This document shows, piece after piece, positions 6,404 through 16,130 of a stretch of 64,000 bases of DNA (positions within the stretch are counted from its first letter, which is position 1; the number at the start of each line of letters is the position of its first letter). The stretch comes from Alphaproteobacteria bacterium (GTDB lineage: Bacteria; Pseudomonadota; Alphaproteobacteria; Rhizobiales; Xanthobacteraceae), in the NCBI GenBank assembly GCA_005884685.1, contig VBAH01000049.1, positions 1-64,000 of the forward strand. Direction: 5' to 3'. Made by a program: the position numbers and the translations under genes. The notes under the pieces were generated by a model that worked only from the letters and a program-made list of their open reading frames with translations, made no database searches and was not told the origin of the DNA.

Positions 6404-8032
6404 TTATGCCGCGACCTGCTCGTCCTGGCGGGCCGGCGGCTTTTCGGCGGCCATCGGGACGGCGCGCTTCCTGGCCGAATAGTACGACGCGTTCTGGTCG
6501 CCGCGCAGCGCTTCGCGGGTGAACGCGATCAGGTGATAGCCCATGAACGCCGCGCCCATCATGCCGTCGATCTGACCGTGTTTCAGCGCCTGCCTGACCA
6601 TGCGCCAGAACGGCTTGCGGAAATCGGACAAGAGGCCGAGGTGCAGCAGGATACGCCACGCCATCACGGCGCCGCCGCGCAGGTTGTTCCAGGTGAGCTT
6701 GCCCTTCGCGGGCGTGACCTTGCGATTGGCGTAGGTCGCTTCGACCTGATGGCGGAAGCGTTCGAACAGCTTCTCGGGGTCGTTCGCATAGGCGATCGCG
6801 CGGCGCCACATGTTCACCACGTCGTCGTGCGGACGCAGGAACACGACATTGCTCTCGCGCGCGTCGTCGTCGAGTGAGAGGCGGCCGTCGCGCTTCAACC
6901 GGTCCCACAGCGGCGTCTTCGGCAGCGCCTGCAACAGATTGATGGTCAGCATCGGGATCTGCGACAGCTCGATGAAGTCTTTCAGCCGCTGCTCGGTGTC
7001 CGCCGTCTCCGAATCCAGCCCGAGGATGATGCCCGACGTGACCTCGATCCCGTAACGGTTCAGCGTCCGGATCGACTCCAGCATCGGCACGGCATTGTTA
7101 TGCCCTTTCTTGATGGCGTCGAGCGAGGCTGCATCCGGCGTCTCGATGCCGACGAACATGCCGACGAAGTTCGCCTCCTTCATCAGCTCCAGAATGTCGG
7201 TCTGCTTGGCAATGTTGAGCGTGGCCTCGCAGGCGAACATCACCGGATAGCTGTGTTTCTTTTGCCAGGCGACGAGATGCGGCAGCATCTCCTTGGCGGC
7301 CTTGCGATTGCCGATGAAATTGTCGTCGACAAAGTAGAGCGTGGCCGGCGGGTTCAGCTGCGAGAAGATTAAATCGAGCTCTGCGACGACCTGCTGCGGC
7401 GTCTTCATGCGCGGCTGGCGGCCGTAAAGGCCGGGAATGTCGCAGAACTCGCACAGGTACGGACAGCCCGAGGAGAACTGCAGCGTGCCGAGCAGATAGC
7501 GGCCGAACGGGATGCGGTCGTAGGCGGGGATCGGGAATTGGGTGAGCGGCAGGCGTTCTTTCGTCGTGAAGACGAACTGCTCGCCGGGTAGGTCGGCGCT
7601 GTCATCGAGCCGCGCGATGATCGCATCGGTCGCATCGCCGAGCTCGCCGCAGTGCAGGTAGTCGAAGCCCGGGTACATCTCGGGCGAAGCCGAAACCGAA
7701 GGCCCGCCCAGCACGGTGACCTTGCCGGCCGCGCGCGCGCGGCGCTGGATGTCGCGGATCTGCTCACCCTGGATATGCATGCCGGTGACCAGCACCACGT
7801 CGGCCCAGGCGAGGTCGGCGCCGGTCGCGGGCTTGATGTTCTCGTCGACGAAGCGGACCGGCCAGCTCTCCGGCATGTAGGCGGCGATCAGCAGCAGCCC
7901 CTGCGGCGGCATGAACGCTTTCACCCGGTACATCAGCTTGTAGGCATGCTGAAAGGTGCCGAACGCCGGCGTGTAGCGCGGAAACACGCAGAGCACCCGG
8001 CGCCTGTTCTTCACGGCGATAGGACAACGCAC
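6404..8032 (-). CDS. B12-binding radical SAM protein, HpnP-like (DUF4070)
   Basis: 542 residues: an N-terminal cobalamin-binding Rossmann domain (about residues 10-145), then a radical SAM core with Cys190, Cys194 and Cys197 (CPYLCEFC), then a DUF4070-type C-terminal domain. The stretches FPRYTPAFGTF, MPPQGLLLIAAY and RFVDENI and the whole layout match the family of hopanoid C-2 methylase HpnP, as I recall it. HpnP transfers a methyl group to ring A of hopanoids using methylcobalamin and SAM. Paralogues with other roles exist, so the substrate is inference. It is divergent (119-base gap) from the Lgt-like/Tes-like operon, which also points to lipids. The last 25 residues are polar and probably disordered. 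Confidence 0.82.
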   Translation of the reverse strand: MRCPIAVKNRRRVLCVFPRYTPAFGTFQHAYKLMYRVKAFMPPQGLLLIAAYMPESWPVRFVDENIKPATGADLAWADVVLVTGMHIQGEQIRDIQRRARAAGKVTVLGGPSVSASPEMYPGFDYLHCGELGDATDAIIARLDDSADLPGEQFVFTTKERLPLTQFPIPAYDRIPFGRYLLGTLQFSSGCPYLCEFCDIPGLYGRQPRMKTPQQVVAELDLIFSQLNPPATLYFVDDNFIGNRKAAKEMLPHLVAWQKKHSYPVMFACEATLNIAKQTDILELMKEANFVGMFVGIETPDAASLDAIKKGHNNAVPMLESIRTLNRYGIEVTSGIILGLDSETADTEQRLKDFIELSQIPMLTINLLQALPKTPLWDRLKRDGRLSLDDDARESNVVFLRPHDDVVNMWRRAIAYANDPEKLFERFRHQVEATYANRKVTPAKGKLTWNNLRGGAVMAWRILLHLGLLSDFRKPFWRMVRQALKHGQIDGMMGAAFMGYHLIAFTREALRGDQNASYYSARKRAVPMAAEKPPARQDEQVAA

Positions 8033-8151
8033 GGTCTTCCCCGCAATTTCCCGACGGCGCCGCGATCATAACTCAGAAGCCTTGCCTCGAATCAATGCCT
8101 ATTGCGGGGTTGTCGCCCGAGCGCCTACGCTCGCGGAACGGGAGCGGGGCG
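8033..8151. promoter_or_regulatory. Divergent promoter region between the two radical SAM units
   Basis: This 119-base gap must hold the promoters for both the HpnP-like gene and the 8152-11773 operon. The leader of the rightward unit has a small hairpin at 8118-8133 (CGAGCG, CCTA, CGCTCG), ending 18 bases before the ATG. I could not assign convincing -35/-10 boxes. Confidence 0.4.
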
Positions 8152-8877
8152 ATGGACGGTTTCCTTGTTCACGCGGCGTTCGATGTGCTGGCCTGGCTCG
8201 CGGCGGGCGCGGCGGGAATTTGGCTGATGCGCAGTGGGCGCGTCGCGTTCGCCGTGCCGCAGCCCCTGCGTTTCGGATATCTCGCCGCTCTGGTCTTCGG
8301 CGCCGGGGTCGGGGCGGTCGTACTCGGCTCGGCCAATCTCTGGCTCTCCGGGATGCCCGGCGTCGCCCGCTCGATCGAAGGCGCGGTCGCGGGCGGCATC
8401 GTGGCGATCGAGGCCTACAAGGCCCGTAACGGCATCGCGTTGCGCACCGGCGCCCGTTTCGCGCTGCCGTTCGCGGTCGGCGTTGCGGTCGGCCGGATCG
8501 GCTGTTTCCTCTCGGGCCTCGACGACTTCACCTACGGAACGCCCACGCCGCTGCCGTGGGCGCACGACTTCGGCGACGGCATACCGCGTCATCCGGTGCA
8601 GCTTTACGAGAGCATCGCGATGGCGGCGTTCGCGCTTTTCTATCTCTGGCGCATCCTGAACCGCGACCGCTTCTGGATCGACCAGGGGTTCTATCTGACC
8701 GTCGGGTTTTACGGCCTGCAACGCTTCGTCTGGGAGTTCTTCAAGCCTTACGGTACGCTGCTCGGCCCCTTCACCCTGTTTCACCTCCTCTCGGCCGCGC
8801 TCGTCGTCTACGCCGTCGCCATGATCGCCACAGCCCCGAAGTCACAAGGCACCTCGCATGAACGCGCCTTTGCGTAA
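8152..8877 (+). CDS. Lgt-like membrane protein (prolipoprotein diacylglyceryl transferase family, non-canonical)
   Basis: A 241-residue polytopic membrane protein. GRIGCF (residues 114-119) and HPVQLYES (147-154) match the conserved GRxxNF and HPxQLYE segments of Lgt, the enzyme that moves diacylglyceryl from phosphatidylglycerol to prolipoprotein cysteines. The HGG motif bearing the essential His of true Lgt is not recognisable (IEGAVAGGI sits in that region), and the protein is shorter than housekeeping Lgt. It is probably a paralogue acting on another lipid or acceptor. The ATG at 8152 is chosen over 8095 because GGGAGCGGGG precedes it. Its end overlaps the Tes-like gene by 20 bases, indicating translational coupling. 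Confidence 0.75.
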   Translation: MDGFLVHAAFDVLAWLAAGAAGIWLMRSGRVAFAVPQPLRFGYLAALVFGAGVGAVVLGSANLWLSGMPGVARSIEGAVAGGIVAIEAYKARNGIALRTGARFALPFAVGVAVGRIGCFLSGLDDFTYGTPTPLPWAHDFGDGIPRHPVQLYESIAMAAFALFYLWRILNRDRFWIDQGFYLTVGFYGLQRFVWEFFKPYGTLLGPFTLFHLLSAALVVYAVAMIATAPKSQGTSHERAFA

Positions 8878-10270
8878 CAGCCGCCCTTACGTTTTCTGGG
8901 GCCAGACGCAGTCATTGTGCGAGAAATGCCTCGCGCTGGTGCCGGCCAAGATCGCAATCCACGGCAACGAAGTCTGGTACGAGAAGCGCTGCCGCCAGCA
9001 CGGCGTGCAGTCGACCCTGATCTCGACCGATGCGGCGTACTGGCGGCTCTGCAAGGATTACATCAAGCCGGGCGACAAGCCGCTCGGCTTCCAGAGCCGC
9101 ACCGAATTCGGCTGCCCGTATGATTGCGGCCTGTGCCCGGACCACGAGCAGCATTCGTGCCTCGCGCTGATCGAGATCAACGAGCACTGCAACCTCACCT
9201 GCCCGGTGTGCTTTGCCGACTCCTCGCCGCAGAAATCGAAGCATCTGACCGTCGAGACGATGGCGCGCATGCTCGATGCGCTGGTCGCGAGCGAGGGCGA
9301 GCCCGACCTGCTTCAGATTTCCGGCGGCGAGCCGACGCTGCATCCGGATTTCTTCCGCATCCTCGACGAGGCGCGGTCGCGCCCGATTCGCCACGTGATG
9401 ATCAACACCAACGGCCTGCGCATCGCGCGCGAGCCGGACTTCGTCGCGCAACTGGCGGAGCGCAAACGCGGGCTCGAGGTCTACCTGCAGTTCGACTCGC
9501 TCGAACGCGACGCGCTGATGAACCTGCGCGGCGCGGATTTGCGGCGCGTGCGCCAGGGGGCGCTGGAAAATCTGGAACGGCACGGCATCTCGACCACGCT
9601 GGTGGTGACGGTGAAGCGCGGCGTGAACGAGGGCGAGATCGGCGCGCTCGTGCAGCATGCGCTGGAATGGCGTTGCGTGCGCGGCGTGACATTCCAGCCG
9701 GTGCAGGACGCCGGGCGCAACGAGGACTTCGACGCCAGGCGCGACCGCGTGCTGCTCTCCGATATCCGCCGCGCCGTGATCGCGGACTCAGGTGTGTTCG
9801 GCGCCGCCGACATGATCCCGCTGCCCTGCAATCCGGAGCAGATCTCGATCGCCTACGGCTTGCGCAACGGCCGGCAGGTGCTCCCGGTCACCTCGATGCT
9901 GTCGCGCGAGGAACTCGTTTCCACGTTGCCGAACACGATCAATTTCGAAAAGCAGCCGGTGCTGCGCGAGAAGTTCATCGAGCTGTTCTCGCTCTCGTCC
10001 GGGCCCAACAATTGCGCCGAGCGGCTGCACGAATTCCTCTGCTGCCTGCCCAAGGTCGAAGCGCCGGCCGCGCTCAGCTACGAGAACGTCTTCCGCGTCG
10101 CGATCGTGCAGTTCATGGACCGCTTCAATTTCTGCGTCGGCGGCGTCAAGCGCTCGTGCATCCACTTCGTGACGCCGCACGGACAGATCATACCGTTCGA
10201 TACCTACAACCTGTTCTATCGCAACGGCCGTATCGAACAGATTCGCGCCGCCATGAAGGCGGGGGCATGA
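8858..10270 (+). CDS. Radical SAM protein resembling tetraether lipid synthase (Tes/MJ0619 family)
   Basis: 470 residues. The radical SAM motif CNLTCPVC gives Cys111, Cys115 and Cys118, with the SAM-binding SGGEPT at 155-160. Upstream are extra cysteines: CEKC (21-24) with Cys45, as in a rubredoxin-like knuckle, and CPYDCGLC (86-93) with Cys101 for an auxiliary iron-sulfur cluster. This pattern, and the phrase CGLCPxHxQHxCLALIEI, is the signature of archaeal Tes/MJ0619, which joins lipid tails through radical chemistry. Several late cysteines (around CCLP and near GGVKRSC) may hold another cluster. That the bacterial protein acts on lipid chains is inference. It is coupled to the Lgt-like gene upstream and shares an ATGA overlap with the small membrane protein downstream. 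Confidence 0.8.
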   Translation: MNAPLRNSRPYVFWGQTQSLCEKCLALVPAKIAIHGNEVWYEKRCRQHGVQSTLISTDAAYWRLCKDYIKPGDKPLGFQSRTEFGCPYDCGLCPDHEQHSCLALIEINEHCNLTCPVCFADSSPQKSKHLTVETMARMLDALVASEGEPDLLQISGGEPTLHPDFFRILDEARSRPIRHVMINTNGLRIAREPDFVAQLAERKRGLEVYLQFDSLERDALMNLRGADLRRVRQGALENLERHGISTTLVVTVKRGVNEGEIGALVQHALEWRCVRGVTFQPVQDAGRNEDFDARRDRVLLSDIRRAVIADSGVFGAADMIPLPCNPEQISIAYGLRNGRQVLPVTSMLSREELVSTLPNTINFEKQPVLREKFIELFSLSSGPNNCAERLHEFLCCLPKVEAPAALSYENVFRVAIVQFMDRFNFCVGGVKRSCIHFVTPHGQIIPFDTYNLFYRNGRIEQIRAAMKAGA

Positions 10271-10542
10271 CCGTGAGCGATCCCGGCAGCCTGCCACGAT
10301 GGGTTGCGGGATATTCCACGACGCGACAGTTCATTCTGACTGCGATCGGGATCCTGCTGCTGGCGCCCGGGGCGTGTTCGCTGGTCTTCATCGCCGGCCA
10401 GCTTCTCCAGTGGATGAGCACCGGCCGGTTCGACGAATTCATCGGGTTTGCGGCCCTTGTCTGGGTCGTGAGCGCCATCATCGCGCTTCCGGGAATTCTG
10501 CTGATCGGGCACGCGCGCCGGAGCGCAGGAGACCGGAGATGA
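10267..10542 (+). CDS. PGxC two-helix membrane protein, copy 1 of 6
   Basis: 91 residues, two predicted transmembrane helices separated by a short polar loop (QWMSTGRFDEF) and an Arg-rich C-terminus (ARRSAGDRR), so both ends are probably cytoplasmic. Helix 1 carries LLLAPGACSLVF; helix 2 carries WVVSAIIALPG. Both motifs recur in the five following genes. The ATG overlaps the TGA of the Tes-like gene (ATGA at 10267-10270), so it belongs to that operon. I recognise no named family. The function is unknown; a role with the lipid-type enzymes upstream is inferred from linkage. Confidence 0.8.
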   Translation: MTVSDPGSLPRWVAGYSTTRQFILTAIGILLLAPGACSLVFIAGQLLQWMSTGRFDEFIGFAALVWVVSAIIALPGILLIGHARRSAGDRR

Positions 10543-10558
10543 AGCGGGACGCAGCCGC

Positions 10559-10834
10559 ATGAGCGCGGGCGACATTCCTCCGCCGGCCGCCCCGCCGGAG
10601 CGGGAGTACATCCTGGAAACGGGCGTGCTGATGTTCTTCGGCATCTGCTTCCTGTTTCCCGGCGCCTGCTCGCTCTACTTCATCATCGCGCTGACGATCG
10701 AGAAGCGCGGCAATCCGTTCTCCGATCCCTATGTGAGGATTTTCGCGGTGCTGTGGGTCATCTGCTTCGCCATCGCGGCGGTCGGGGTGGCGATGATCGT
10801 TGCGGCGCGCCGGCGACCGCGGAGATCGCCATGA
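10559..10834 (+). CDS. PGxC two-helix membrane protein, copy 2 of 6
   Basis: 91 residues with a Pro-rich N-terminal tail (DIPPPAAPPERE), helix 1 with FLFPGACSLYFI, a charged loop (EKRGNPFSD), helix 2 with LWVICFAIAAVG and a strongly basic C-terminus (AARRRPRRSP). It is a clear paralogue of the preceding and following genes. It starts 16 bases after copy 1 and ends in an ATGA overlap with copy 3. A purine stretch (AAGCGGGA) upstream may serve as ribosome binding site. Function unknown. Confidence 0.8.
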   Translation: MSAGDIPPPAAPPEREYILETGVLMFFGICFLFPGACSLYFIIALTIEKRGNPFSDPYVRIFAVLWVICFAIAAVGVAMIVAARRRPRRSP

Positions 10835-11088
10835 ACGCGCCGCCGGCAGAACCGCCGCGCCGCAGCGGCGCTCAAATCGCGCTGACGCTGCTCGGCGTCG
10901 TCCTGCTGCTGCCGGGCCTTTGCTCGCTGCTCACGATGCTGACGATGATCCAGGAGATGCGCGACGGCGATTCCCGCATGGTCGACTTCGCCGCAATATG
11001 GATCGTCACGTTCGCCATTTCGGCCGCCGGCCTCTGGCTGGTGATAACCCAGCGCAACAAGCGCAAGGACGCGGAGCCTCCGGCATGA
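10831..11088 (+). CDS. PGxC two-helix membrane protein, copy 3 of 6
   Basis: 85 residues: a short Pro-rich N-terminus, helix 1 with LLLPGLCSLLTM, loop QEMRDGDSRM, helix 2 with IWIVTFAISAAGLWLV and a charged tail (TQRNKRKDAE). The start overlaps the stop of copy 2 by four bases and its own stop overlaps copy 4 by four bases, so translation is probably coupled through the array. The sequence CGCGGAGA precedes the ATG. No named family recognised. Confidence 0.8.
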   Translation: MNAPPAEPPRRSGAQIALTLLGVVLLLPGLCSLLTMLTMIQEMRDGDSRMVDFAAIWIVTFAISAAGLWLVITQRNKRKDAEPPA

Positions 11089-11279
11089 AGATCCTCATGG
11101 TGCTGATCGGCCTGGTGCTGCTGCTGCCGGGGCTTTGCGCGGTGATCTACCTGGTCACGATGCTGCCGTTCCTGTGGGGCGATCCCGCCACGTTTGGCTT
11201 GCTGAGCCTGCTCTGGATCGTCTGCGGCTTCATTACCTACGGCGGCATCCGCCTGATCCAGCGTGGTGCCGGCAAATAG
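11085..11279 (+). CDS. PGxC two-helix membrane protein, copy 4 of 6 (minimal form)
   Basis: The shortest member at 64 residues. It has no N-terminal tail and starts directly in helix 1 (LVLLLPGLCAVIYL), followed by a short loop with WGDPATFG, helix 2 (LWIVCGFITYGGIRLI) and a short basic end (QRGAGK). It shows that the conserved unit is the two-helix hairpin itself. The ATGA overlap with copy 3 and GCGGAG upstream support the start. Confidence 0.78.
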   Translation: MKILMVLIGLVLLLPGLCAVIYLVTMLPFLWGDPATFGLLSLLWIVCGFITYGGIRLIQRGAGK

Positions 11280-11295
11280 ACGCGGGGAGGCGCCG

Positions 11296-11547
11296 GTGAG
11301 TTCGCCAGAATCAAATCCGCCACCGGTCGCGCCGCCGCCGCCGCCGCCGCGGCCCGGCCGCGTCGCGTCGGTTCTCTTGGCCTTGCTCGGCATCGTGATG
11401 CTGCTGCCGGGGATCTGCTCGATCGTTTTCATTGCCATCTTGCAGGGTGGCGGCGGCGACGGAGTCATCGGCTTGCTCTGGCTGGTCTGCTTCGCGATCT
11501 CGGCGGGCGGGATCGGGCTGATTGCGCACGCGGTGCGGGGGCGATGA
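11296..11547 (+). CDS. PGxC two-helix membrane protein, copy 5 of 6
   Basis: 83 residues from a GTG start, chosen because GGGGAGG lies six bases upstream; an in-frame GTG at 11263 lies inside copy 4. The N-terminus is a Pro-rich tail with a run of prolines, then helix 1 with MLLPGICSIVFI, a Gly-rich loop, helix 2 with LLWLVCFAISAGG and a basic end (AHAVRGR). It is the copy with the longest Pro-rich extension. Function unknown. Confidence 0.75.
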   Translation: MSSPESNPPPVAPPPPPPRPGRVASVLLALLGIVMLLPGICSIVFIAILQGGGGDGVIGLLWLVCFAISAGGIGLIAHAVRGR

Positions 11548-11551
11548 GCGG

Positions 11552-11773
11552 ATGGCGGAGCGCAGCGGCTGCGCAACGGCCTTGGTGGCGGTGGGCGGGC
11601 TGATCCTGACCCTGCCGGGACTGTGCCTGTTCTTCGCATTCGGCTCCGTGATGGAGCGCTATGTCCGGCCCTATCAAACGCTCATCGTCTGGGCGGCGGT
11701 CATCGGCCTGATCGGCATCGTCGGCTATCTGATTTACGACTTTTCGCGCGACCCGCCGCGGGGGCCGAACTAA
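11552..11773 (+). CDS. PGxC two-helix membrane protein, copy 6 of 6 (most diverged)
   Basis: 73 residues: helix 1 with LILTLPGLCLFFAF, loop MERYVRPYQ, helix 2 with LIGIVGYLIY and a polar tail (DFSRDPPRGPN). The helix 1 motif is kept, but the serine after the cysteine is lost and helix 2 lacks the FAIS signature. The ATG lies four bases after the stop of copy 5, behind GGGGGCG. It is the last gene before an 82-base gap and typA, so probably the operon end. Confidence 0.72.
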   Translation: MAERSGCATALVAVGGLILTLPGLCLFFAFGSVMERYVRPYQTLIVWAAVIGLIGIVGYLIYDFSRDPPRGPN

Positions 11774-11855
11774 CGATTGCCTTTCGGGGCTTCATCCCTA
11801 TATTGCGCTGCAAAATCGCCGCCTCACCGCGGCCCTTGACCCTTTGGAATCCTTC

Positions 11856-13682
11856 ATGAATCTCCGCAACGTGGCGATCATCGCCCACGTCGACCATGGC
11901 AAAACCACGCTGGTCGACCGGCTGCTGCAGCAATCCGGCACCTACCGCGACAACCAGCGTCAGGTCGAGCGCGCCATGGATTCCAACGATCTGGAGCGCG
12001 AGCGCGGTATCACGATCCTCGCCAAGGCGACCTCGATCCAGTGGAAGGATACGCGCATCAACATCGTCGACACGCCGGGCCATGCCGACTTCGGCGGCGA
12101 GGTCGAGCGCATCCTCAACATGGTGGACGGCGCGCTGGTGCTGGTCGACGCCGCCGAGGGGCCGCTGCCGCAGACCAAGTTCGTGGTGTCCAAGGCGCTC
12201 AAGATGGGGCTCAAGCCCATCGTGGTGATCAACAAGGTCGACCGGCCGGATGCGCGCCCGGTTGAAGTCGTGAACGAGGTGTTCGACCTGTTCGCCGCGC
12301 TCGATGCGACCGACGAGCAGCTCGACTTTCCGATCCTCTACGGCTCCGCCAAGCAGGGCTGGATGGCGGCGAGCCTCGACGGCTCGCACGGCGATGGCAT
12401 GAAGCCGCTGTTCGACCTGATCCTCAGTCACGTCAAGGCGCCGGTGGTCGAGGAAGGGCCGTTCCGCCTGCTCGGCACGATCCTCGAAGCCAACCCGTAT
12501 CTCGGGCGCGTCATCACCGGCCGCATCTCGTCGGGTTCGGTCAAGCCGAACCAGACCGTGAAGGTGCTCGACCACGAGGGCCGGCTGGTCGAAGCGGGCC
12601 GCATCATGAAGGTGCTGGCGTTCCGCGGGCTGGAACGCGTGCCGATCGACGAGGCCTCGGCCGGCGACATCGTGGCGCTCGCCGGCCTGCCGAATGCGAC
12701 CGTCGCGCACACCATCTGCGCGCCCGAGGTCGAGACGCCGATCCCGGCGCAGCCGATCGATCCGCCGACCTTGGCGATGACGTTCCGCGTGAACGACTCG
12801 CCGCTCGCCGGCACCGAGGGCGACAAGGTTACCGGCCGGATGATCCGCGACCGTCTGCTGCGCGAGGCCGAGGGCAACGTGGCGCTGCGCGTGCGCGAGT
12901 CCGACGAGAACGACTGGATGGAGGTCGCCGGCCGCGGCGAACTGCAGCTCGGCATCCTGATCGAGACGATGCGGCGCGAGGGCTTCGAGCTTTCCGTGTC
13001 ACGCCCGAAGGTGCTGCTGCGCCGCAACGAGGCAGGCGAACTGGAAGAGCCGCTCGAAGAGGTCGTGATCGACGTCGACGAGGAGCATTCCGGCGTCGTG
13101 GTGCAGAAGATGTCGGAGCGCAAGGCCGAGCTCGTCGAGATGCGGCCGTCCGGCGGGCATCGCACGCGGCTCGTGTTCTTCGCGCCGACCCGCGGTTTGA
13201 TCGGCTACCAGGGCGAACTGCTCACCGACACGCGCGGCACCGCGATCATGAACCGCCTGTTCCACGGCTATACGGCGCACAAGGGCGAGATCGAGGGCCG
13301 CCGCAACGGCGTGCTCATCTCCAACGACCAGGGCGACGCCGTCGCCTACGCGATGTGGAAGCTGGAGGACCGCGGCCCGATGATGATCGAGCCCGGCTGG
13401 AAGGTCTACCGCGGCATGATCGTCGGCGAGCACACGCGCGGCAACGATCTCGAGATCAACGTGCTCAAGGGCAAGCAACTCACCAATATCCGCACCACCT
13501 CGAAGGACGAGGCGGTGCGGCTCACGCCGCCGATCCGCATGACGCTCGAGAAGGCGCTCGCCTATATCCAGGACGACGAGCTGGTCGAGGTGACGCCGAA
13601 GTCGATAAGGCTGCGCAAGAAACTGCTCGATGCGAACGAGCGCAAGCGCGCCGAGCGTGCGAAGGAAGCCGAGACGGTGTGA
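11856..13682 (+). CDS. typA: Ribosome-associated GTPase TypA/BipA
   Basis: A translational GTPase of 608 residues that binds the ribosome in a GTP-dependent way and supports 50S assembly and stress growth. Walker A is AHVDHGKTT (10-18), with the DTPGHADF switch II and NKVD base-recognition motifs, followed by EF-G-like domains and the BipA-specific C-terminal domain ([10 protein letters not shown]). The ATG at 11856 begins the usual [11 protein letters not shown]; a TTG four codons upstream is less likely. It is probably transcribed independently of the small membrane proteins before it. Confidence 0.95.
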
Positions 13683-16054: not shown

Positions 16055-16130
16055 TGGTGGAGCCAGGCGGGATCGAACCGCCGACCTCCTCATTGCGAAC
16101 GAGGCGCTCTCCCAGCTGAGCTATGGCCCC
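16055..16130 (-). tRNA. tRNA-Ala (CGC anticodon)
   Basis: A complete 76-base cloverleaf on the minus strand with encoded CCA. Acceptor stem GGGGCCA pairs with TGGCTCC and includes the G3-U70 wobble pair that identifies alanine tRNAs. The D arm is GCTC/GAGC, the anticodon loop TTCGCAA gives anticodon CGC (reads GCG), and the T arm is GGCGG TTCGATC CCGCC. All stems pair. Confidence 0.97.

Follow-up and report, generated by a model that had tools for sequence, protein, structure and literature searches.

An Lgt-like membrane transferase (P0002), a Tes/TrsS-family radical SAM enzyme (P0003) and a set of small two-helix membrane proteins, all encoded in the window (the whole 64,000-nucleotide stretch of DNA analysed here), form a conserved module. 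We propose, at a probability of roughly 0.48 and so just short of even, that this is a three-part membrane-protein modification module, in which the small proteins would be the substrates, the Lgt-like enzyme would transfer a lipid and the radical SAM enzyme would perform a second, radical step. The initial annotation knew of no described system with such a set, and we likewise found no description of the combination of Lgt-like, radical SAM and small-protein genes in the non-subscription literature searched.

Genes of the module and its flanks (positions are those of the window)
Feature	Position	Strand	Basis or motif
Lgt-like integral membrane transferase P0002	8152..8877 (probable start; ORF opens 8095)	+	GRIGC active-site motif; Pfam LGT
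Tes/TrsS-family radical SAM enzyme P0003	8858..10270	+	profile matches, fold, metal motifs
Small 2-TM protein 1	10267..10542	+	APGAC37S
Small 2-TM protein 2	10559..10834	+	FPGACS
Small 2-TM protein 3	10831..11088	+	LPGLCS
Small 2-TM protein 4	11085..11279	+	LPGLCA
Small 2-TM protein 5	11296..11547 (ORF opens 11263)	+	LPGICS
Small 2-TM protein 6	11552..11773 (ORF opens 11522)	+	LPGLCL
P0001, B12/radical SAM/DUF4070 neighbour	6404..8032	-	domains; outside conserved module
typA (BipA-type GTPase)	11856..13682	+	conserved Nitrobacteraceae flank; outside module

An ORF check of positions 6404-11773 found all reported genes open at these coordinates. P0002 probably starts at 8152, as judged from the start Met of its homologues and from its conserved residues. 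The six small genes trail P0003 with 4-nt or small overlaps, and the six paralogous membrane proteins with overlapping starts and stops described in the initial annotation are indeed present after the enzyme pair. A single promoter-like site before typA, at 11777, is no better than chance, and the sole Rfam match in the first 20 kb of the window is a tRNA gene at 16058-16130 on the minus strand.

The Lgt-like and Tes-like genes had been read as a pair opening an operon, within a set of three lipid-linked enzymes that included an HpnP-like protein. The pair is co-conserved and the small membrane proteins belong with it; the HpnP-like gene does not. P0001 is divergent, lying on the strand opposite to P0002 and P0003, and it occurs in none of the loci related to the P0003 locus that were recovered in one genome scan (80 loci, L001-L080, mainly Bradyrhizobium and Rhodoplanes). 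Since P0002 and P0003 remain adjacent in every one of these loci with enough flank, we place P0001 outside the module and reject it as a member. P0001 does carry B12-binding, radical SAM and DUF4070 domains, the three that are also found in the hopanoid C-2 methylase HpnP. Several uncharacterised clades carry the same three domains (PMC10697835), and the label "HpnP-like" therefore says little by itself.

On the other side of the module, the small proteins and then typA follow the pair in Bradyrhizobium and Rhodoplanes loci. The typA gene also occurs in genomes without the module, and no module genes were found upstream of it in module-less Bradyrhizobium-type genomes (L162-L165). These four loci have a Tat-signal, alkaline-phosphatase-like gene in that position instead.

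A neighbourhood survey of the Tes-like gene, proposed in the initial annotation, confirmed the association: the Lgt-like and radical SAM genes adjoin in all 25 of 25 loci drawn from many families, and nothing else in the neighbourhood is universal. In the protein tree, the window's protein lies beside Rhodoplanes in Nitrobacteraceae. Distribution is patchy at every level sampled, with 9/199 genomes of the order, 6/385 of the class, 12/398 of the phylum and 11/369 of the class of genome G710. Divergences of the Lgt-like and radical SAM proteins are correlated (Mantel r 0.88, 0/2000 permutations).

Per locus, one to six small membrane proteins are encoded immediately behind the radical SAM gene and in some cases ahead of the Lgt-like gene; one of their helices, running from inside to outside, contains G-x-C (or x-G-C). 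Under a strict rule, based on a motif originally derived from the same loci that were then counted, the 192 kb examined downstream of radical SAM genes hold 128 small GxC proteins, whereas 2.7 Mb of control sequence hold 3. Two of the control matches are explained, one as a slicing artefact ("upstream" of L067) and one as a genuine small protein adjoining the Lgt-like gene (L117), so the true background is lower than 3 in 2.7 Mb. Among seven newly found Lgt-linked gammaproteobacterial loci, three pass the strict rule and six a looser one, and the seventh has V-T-F-C and V-S-L-C versions of the motif. The broader rule, fixed after these loci had been seen, finds a nearby small protein in 33/34 Lgt-linked loci versus 0/5 Lgt-less radical SAM loci (Fisher p=1e-5, an optimistic value because the loci are related and not phylogenetically independent).

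The three components are also lost together. No P0002 homologue was found anywhere in eight genomes that lack the radical SAM gene (four belong to the Bradyrhizobium-type genus), nor in three genomes with an Lgt-less radical SAM gene. Likewise, the small family, searched with a profile built on Nitrobacteraceae members, is absent both genome-wide and at the typA site in eight genomes that lack this radical SAM gene, and is present in five that have it; typA loci lacking the module have no small proteins. In two gammaproteobacterial loci (L148/L149) whose radical SAM enzymes are 47-48% identical to P0003, the Lgt-like gene, the small proteins and a CCLP cysteine pair of the radical SAM enzyme are missing together. 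This pair (C395-C396 in P0003) is present wherever the Lgt-like gene occurs in the main clade.

Lgt-less relatives point to a second type of partner for the radical SAM family, a methyltransferase (L148; L149; L188, 5971-8339; L189, 4893-7171). In a haloarchaeon and in Mycolicibacterium it lies directly downstream of the radical SAM gene, and inspection by eye places one downstream in L148/L149 as well (~8.0-11.2 kb, gene orientation). The methyltransferase of L188 is DVU_1556-like at 136 bits (cut-off 155). No Lgt-like or GxC protein stands beside the methyltransferase-linked radical SAM genes of the haloarchaeon, Mycolicibacterium or L148/L149. A further locus (L150 of genome G1144, 7634-11689) shows another context: two radical SAM genes of the P0003 family (33% and 27% identical) with short-chain-dehydrogenase-like genes close by.

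The module is not confined to Alpha- and Gammaproteobacteria: loci from a plasmid collection place it also in Bacteroidota and Actinomycetota. In Persicobacter (Bacteroidota, 47% identity) the Lgt-like gene is followed by the adjoining radical SAM gene, and this in turn by the gene for a 59-residue protein that ends in VIGTGICGSLLS. In three Actinomycetota (Mycobacterium branderi, an M. avium plasmid and Nonomuraea, 30-32% identity), each locus pairs an Lgt-family gene with the adjacent radical SAM gene and also encodes one or two membrane proteins whose last helix has a G-x-C-T-G-x-N-P tail. The motif with Gly at -2 to the Cys recurs in these proteins from other phyla, where the motif was not selected for. 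In Nonomuraea (L190, 3030-4136) a long region rich in Pro and Gly is fused to the N-terminal side of the GxC membrane protein.

Comparison of P0003 with known enzymes reveals a protein that has the architecture of tetraether synthase (Tes, or GDGT-MAS; MJ0619 in PMC9433317 and PMC8941075) over its whole length. Its only strong PDB relative is tetraether synthase 7tol (E=2e-60), and the predicted structure has the overall GDGT-MAS fold (Foldseek match to 7tom, E=2.5e-30, TM 0.75/0.71, pLDDT 70). Aligned with the ligand motifs described for Tes (PMC9433317), P0003 retains the rubredoxin-type site (C21x2C24x20C45x2H48), the N-cluster motif (C86x3C90x2C93x2H96) and the radical SAM motif (C111x3C115x2C118). 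It differs in its score against the NCBIfam Tes model (NF045702; 258 bits, cut-off 450), in rearranged C-terminal cysteines (C324, C395-C396 and C434) and in its partners, an Lgt-like protein and small membrane proteins. In addition, Met439, a C-cluster ligand of MJ0619, and the conserved Tyr459 are replaced at the aligned positions by Val and Phe, although both residues are dispensable in MJ0619 in vitro.

The best full-length model match of P0003 is the TrsS radical SAM (seleno)protein (NF045646), at 303 bits against a cut-off of 490. In contrast to TrsS, the P0003 gene is an open frame without an internal TGA and has no DVU_1556-type methyltransferase neighbour. We take such a methyltransferase, from the NCBIfam naming, to be the partner that defines TrsS, and none is a universal neighbour in the Lgt-linked loci.

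P0002 falls within the Pfam LGT family (69 bits, cut-off 24.9) but under every NCBIfam Lgt equivalog cut-off (best 40/428 bits; TIGR00544 32/118.9), and a separate true Lgt is encoded in the same genome (252 bits). Foldseek gave no Lgt match for an AF2 model of P0002 that was built on an 11-sequence alignment. P0002 shares with Lgt (PMC4728403) the GRxG, RHPxQLYE and YxxxRxxxE motifs and the donor-site arginines. In a 30-sequence alignment, the Lgt-like family retains the equivalents of Lgt R143, Y235, R239, E243, E202 and P197; the essential R143, Y235, R239 and E243 positions are kept in 28-30/30 sequences, the last as E in 26 and D in 4. In E. coli Lgt, R143, Y235 and R239 line the site of the donor phosphatidylglycerol, H103 is proposed to bind the lipobox peptide, and H103 changes and R246K are inactive (PMC4728403). 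In the Lgt-like family, however, the H103 position is lost (E/A/L/V/I/M) and the signature N146 is Cys in 30/30. The alignment therefore suggests a donor site that is kept and an acceptor site that has changed. With H103 lost, and with changes at this residue inactivating the E. coli enzyme, transfer of a diacylglyceryl group to a thiol cannot be taken for granted.

Searched with a small-family profile, the whole 5.4 Mb genome yields only the six proteins of the window (next match E=0.39), and Pfam and NCBIfam return sub-threshold holin-like noise only. Across families the small proteins hardly align, yet they share the G-x-C helix. Mean charges of +1.6 at the N-terminus, -0.9 in the loop and +1.9 at the C-terminus are consistent with a hairpin of N-in/C-in topology whose outgoing helix bears the Cys. 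Similarly to lipobox substrates, the small proteins have a hydrophobic inside-to-outside helix, and a conserved Cys lies in the outer part of it. However, the conserved Gly is at -2 instead of -1, often with Pro or Ser at -3, and none of the six in the window (0/6) fits the lipobox [LVI][ASTVI][GAS]C. The helix moreover continues or is the last one, and no cleavage site is expected. Since about 10 hydrophobic residues come after the Cys in the proteobacterial hairpins, this residue would lie deeper than a lipobox Cys.

The small genes are real and under purifying selection, with a dN/dS of 0.31 (468 pairs) versus 0.09 for the radical SAM gene; such values are what real, faster-evolving substrates would be expected to give. 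A second conserved Cys (R-S-G-C or R-G-G-C) occurs at the cytoplasmic end of helix 1 in the protein at 11552-11773 of the window and in many small proteins of Bradyrhizobium (e.g., L004, L005 and L066).

Because the curated cut-offs for Tes, TrsS and Lgt are not reached, we file the module under none of the three; its enzymes probably work like relatives of them. In the proposed modification module, the small membrane proteins, in one to six copies, would present the Cys of the G-x-C helix as acceptor, and the Lgt-like enzyme would attach a diacylglyceryl-type group to it by Lgt-type chemistry, with phosphatidylglycerol as the probable donor. The altered acceptor site of this enzyme would reflect a target other than the lipobox of a cleaved signal peptide. 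The Tes/TrsS-like radical SAM enzyme, located in the cytoplasm, would then carry out another modification. It would act either on lipid tails, those of the attached or of the donor lipid, in the way that Tes joins the tail ends of archaeal lipids (PMC9433317), or on the small protein near G-x-C. We put the chances that the small proteins are the substrates, with the Cys as acceptor, at about even; that they act as acceptors would be the simplest reading of a non-lipobox Cys near or below the outer surface. The assignment of the radical step to lipid tails or to peptide is speculative. An elaboration that we hold to be improbable is an uncleaved transmembrane lipoprotein in Pseudomonadota, Bacteroidota and Actinomycetota, its helix Cys lipidated by the repurposed Lgt and its lipid tail then welded by the Tes-like enzyme, perhaps to a lipid in the opposite leaflet, which would fix the protein covalently to a membrane-spanning lipid.

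A doubtful but serious alternative is the membrane-lipid idea of the initial annotation, that the module synthesizes a lipid: the radical SAM enzyme would couple or alter phospholipid tails, the Lgt-like enzyme would transfer or rearrange glyceryl lipids, and the small proteins would be scaffolds or lipid-organising accessories. The whole Tes fold (TM 0.75 to 7tom) and all N-terminal and radical SAM metal motifs fit this account, as do the lipid-using nature of the Lgt family and the proposal of Zeng et al. (PMC8941075) that bacterial Tes homologues make membrane-spanning lipids. P0003 nevertheless reaches neither the Tes nor the TrsS cut-off and carries the Met439 and Tyr459 replacements, and the literature searched has no report of such a lipid from these bacteria. 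Lipid synthesis also leaves unexplained why small Cys proteins are inherited with the Lgt-like gene and multiplied in tandem; this co-inheritance, the helix Cys and the tandem multiplication point more to a protein that is modified than to a free lipid that is made. Another alternative is that the radical SAM enzyme alters the small protein, for example at its conserved Gly or Cys in RiPP-like fashion, with the Lgt-like protein only anchoring or holding it. Radical SAM peptide systems usually set an enzyme beside a number of short, variable paralogues, the small genes evolve faster than the enzyme, and the Gly two before the Cys is present in every phylum. We consider this unlikely, given that P0003 comes closest, in sequence and fold, to the lipid-acting Tes and to TrsS rather than to the SPASM peptide maturases, and that a leader or recognition domain was not seen.

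Very unlikely in our view is a TrsS/DVU_1556-methyltransferase-type reaction on a small molecule, the Lgt-like link serving membrane delivery. It would account for TrsS being the best NCBIfam model of P0003 and for the methyltransferases directly downstream of Lgt-less relatives, DVU_1556-like in L188, but the score is far under the TrsS cut-off, no methyltransferase adjoins P0003 and the CCLP pair sets the Lgt-linked clade apart. We give the least credence to a reading of the small proteins as membrane toxins, holins or defence peptides that the enzymes would mature: their patchy distribution (9/199 genomes of the order) and weak sub-threshold holin matches would suit such elements, yet the genes are chromosomal, occupy a fixed site before typA in Nitrobacteraceae and have no immunity-like gene, and no defence model is matched beyond the general radical SAM core. 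A defence system as such was considered and rejected, its only hits being generic radical SAM core matches to viperin-type models.

The usual account of protein lipidation in bacteria has a single pathway and a single acceptor motif. If the modification reading is true, a second, co-inherited lipidation set, which combines a repurposed Lgt with a radical SAM enzyme of lipid type and small membrane proteins of its own, would extend this pathway. The results suggest a different partner, and perhaps a different substrate, for one group of bacterial Tes relatives. In the literature, bacterial Tes homologues are proposed makers of brGDGT-type geochemical biomarker lipids (PMC8941075, PMC11868695); on the modification reading, a group of them would acquire a different, testable job, and metagenome surveys that infer lipid producers from Tes matches would be affected.
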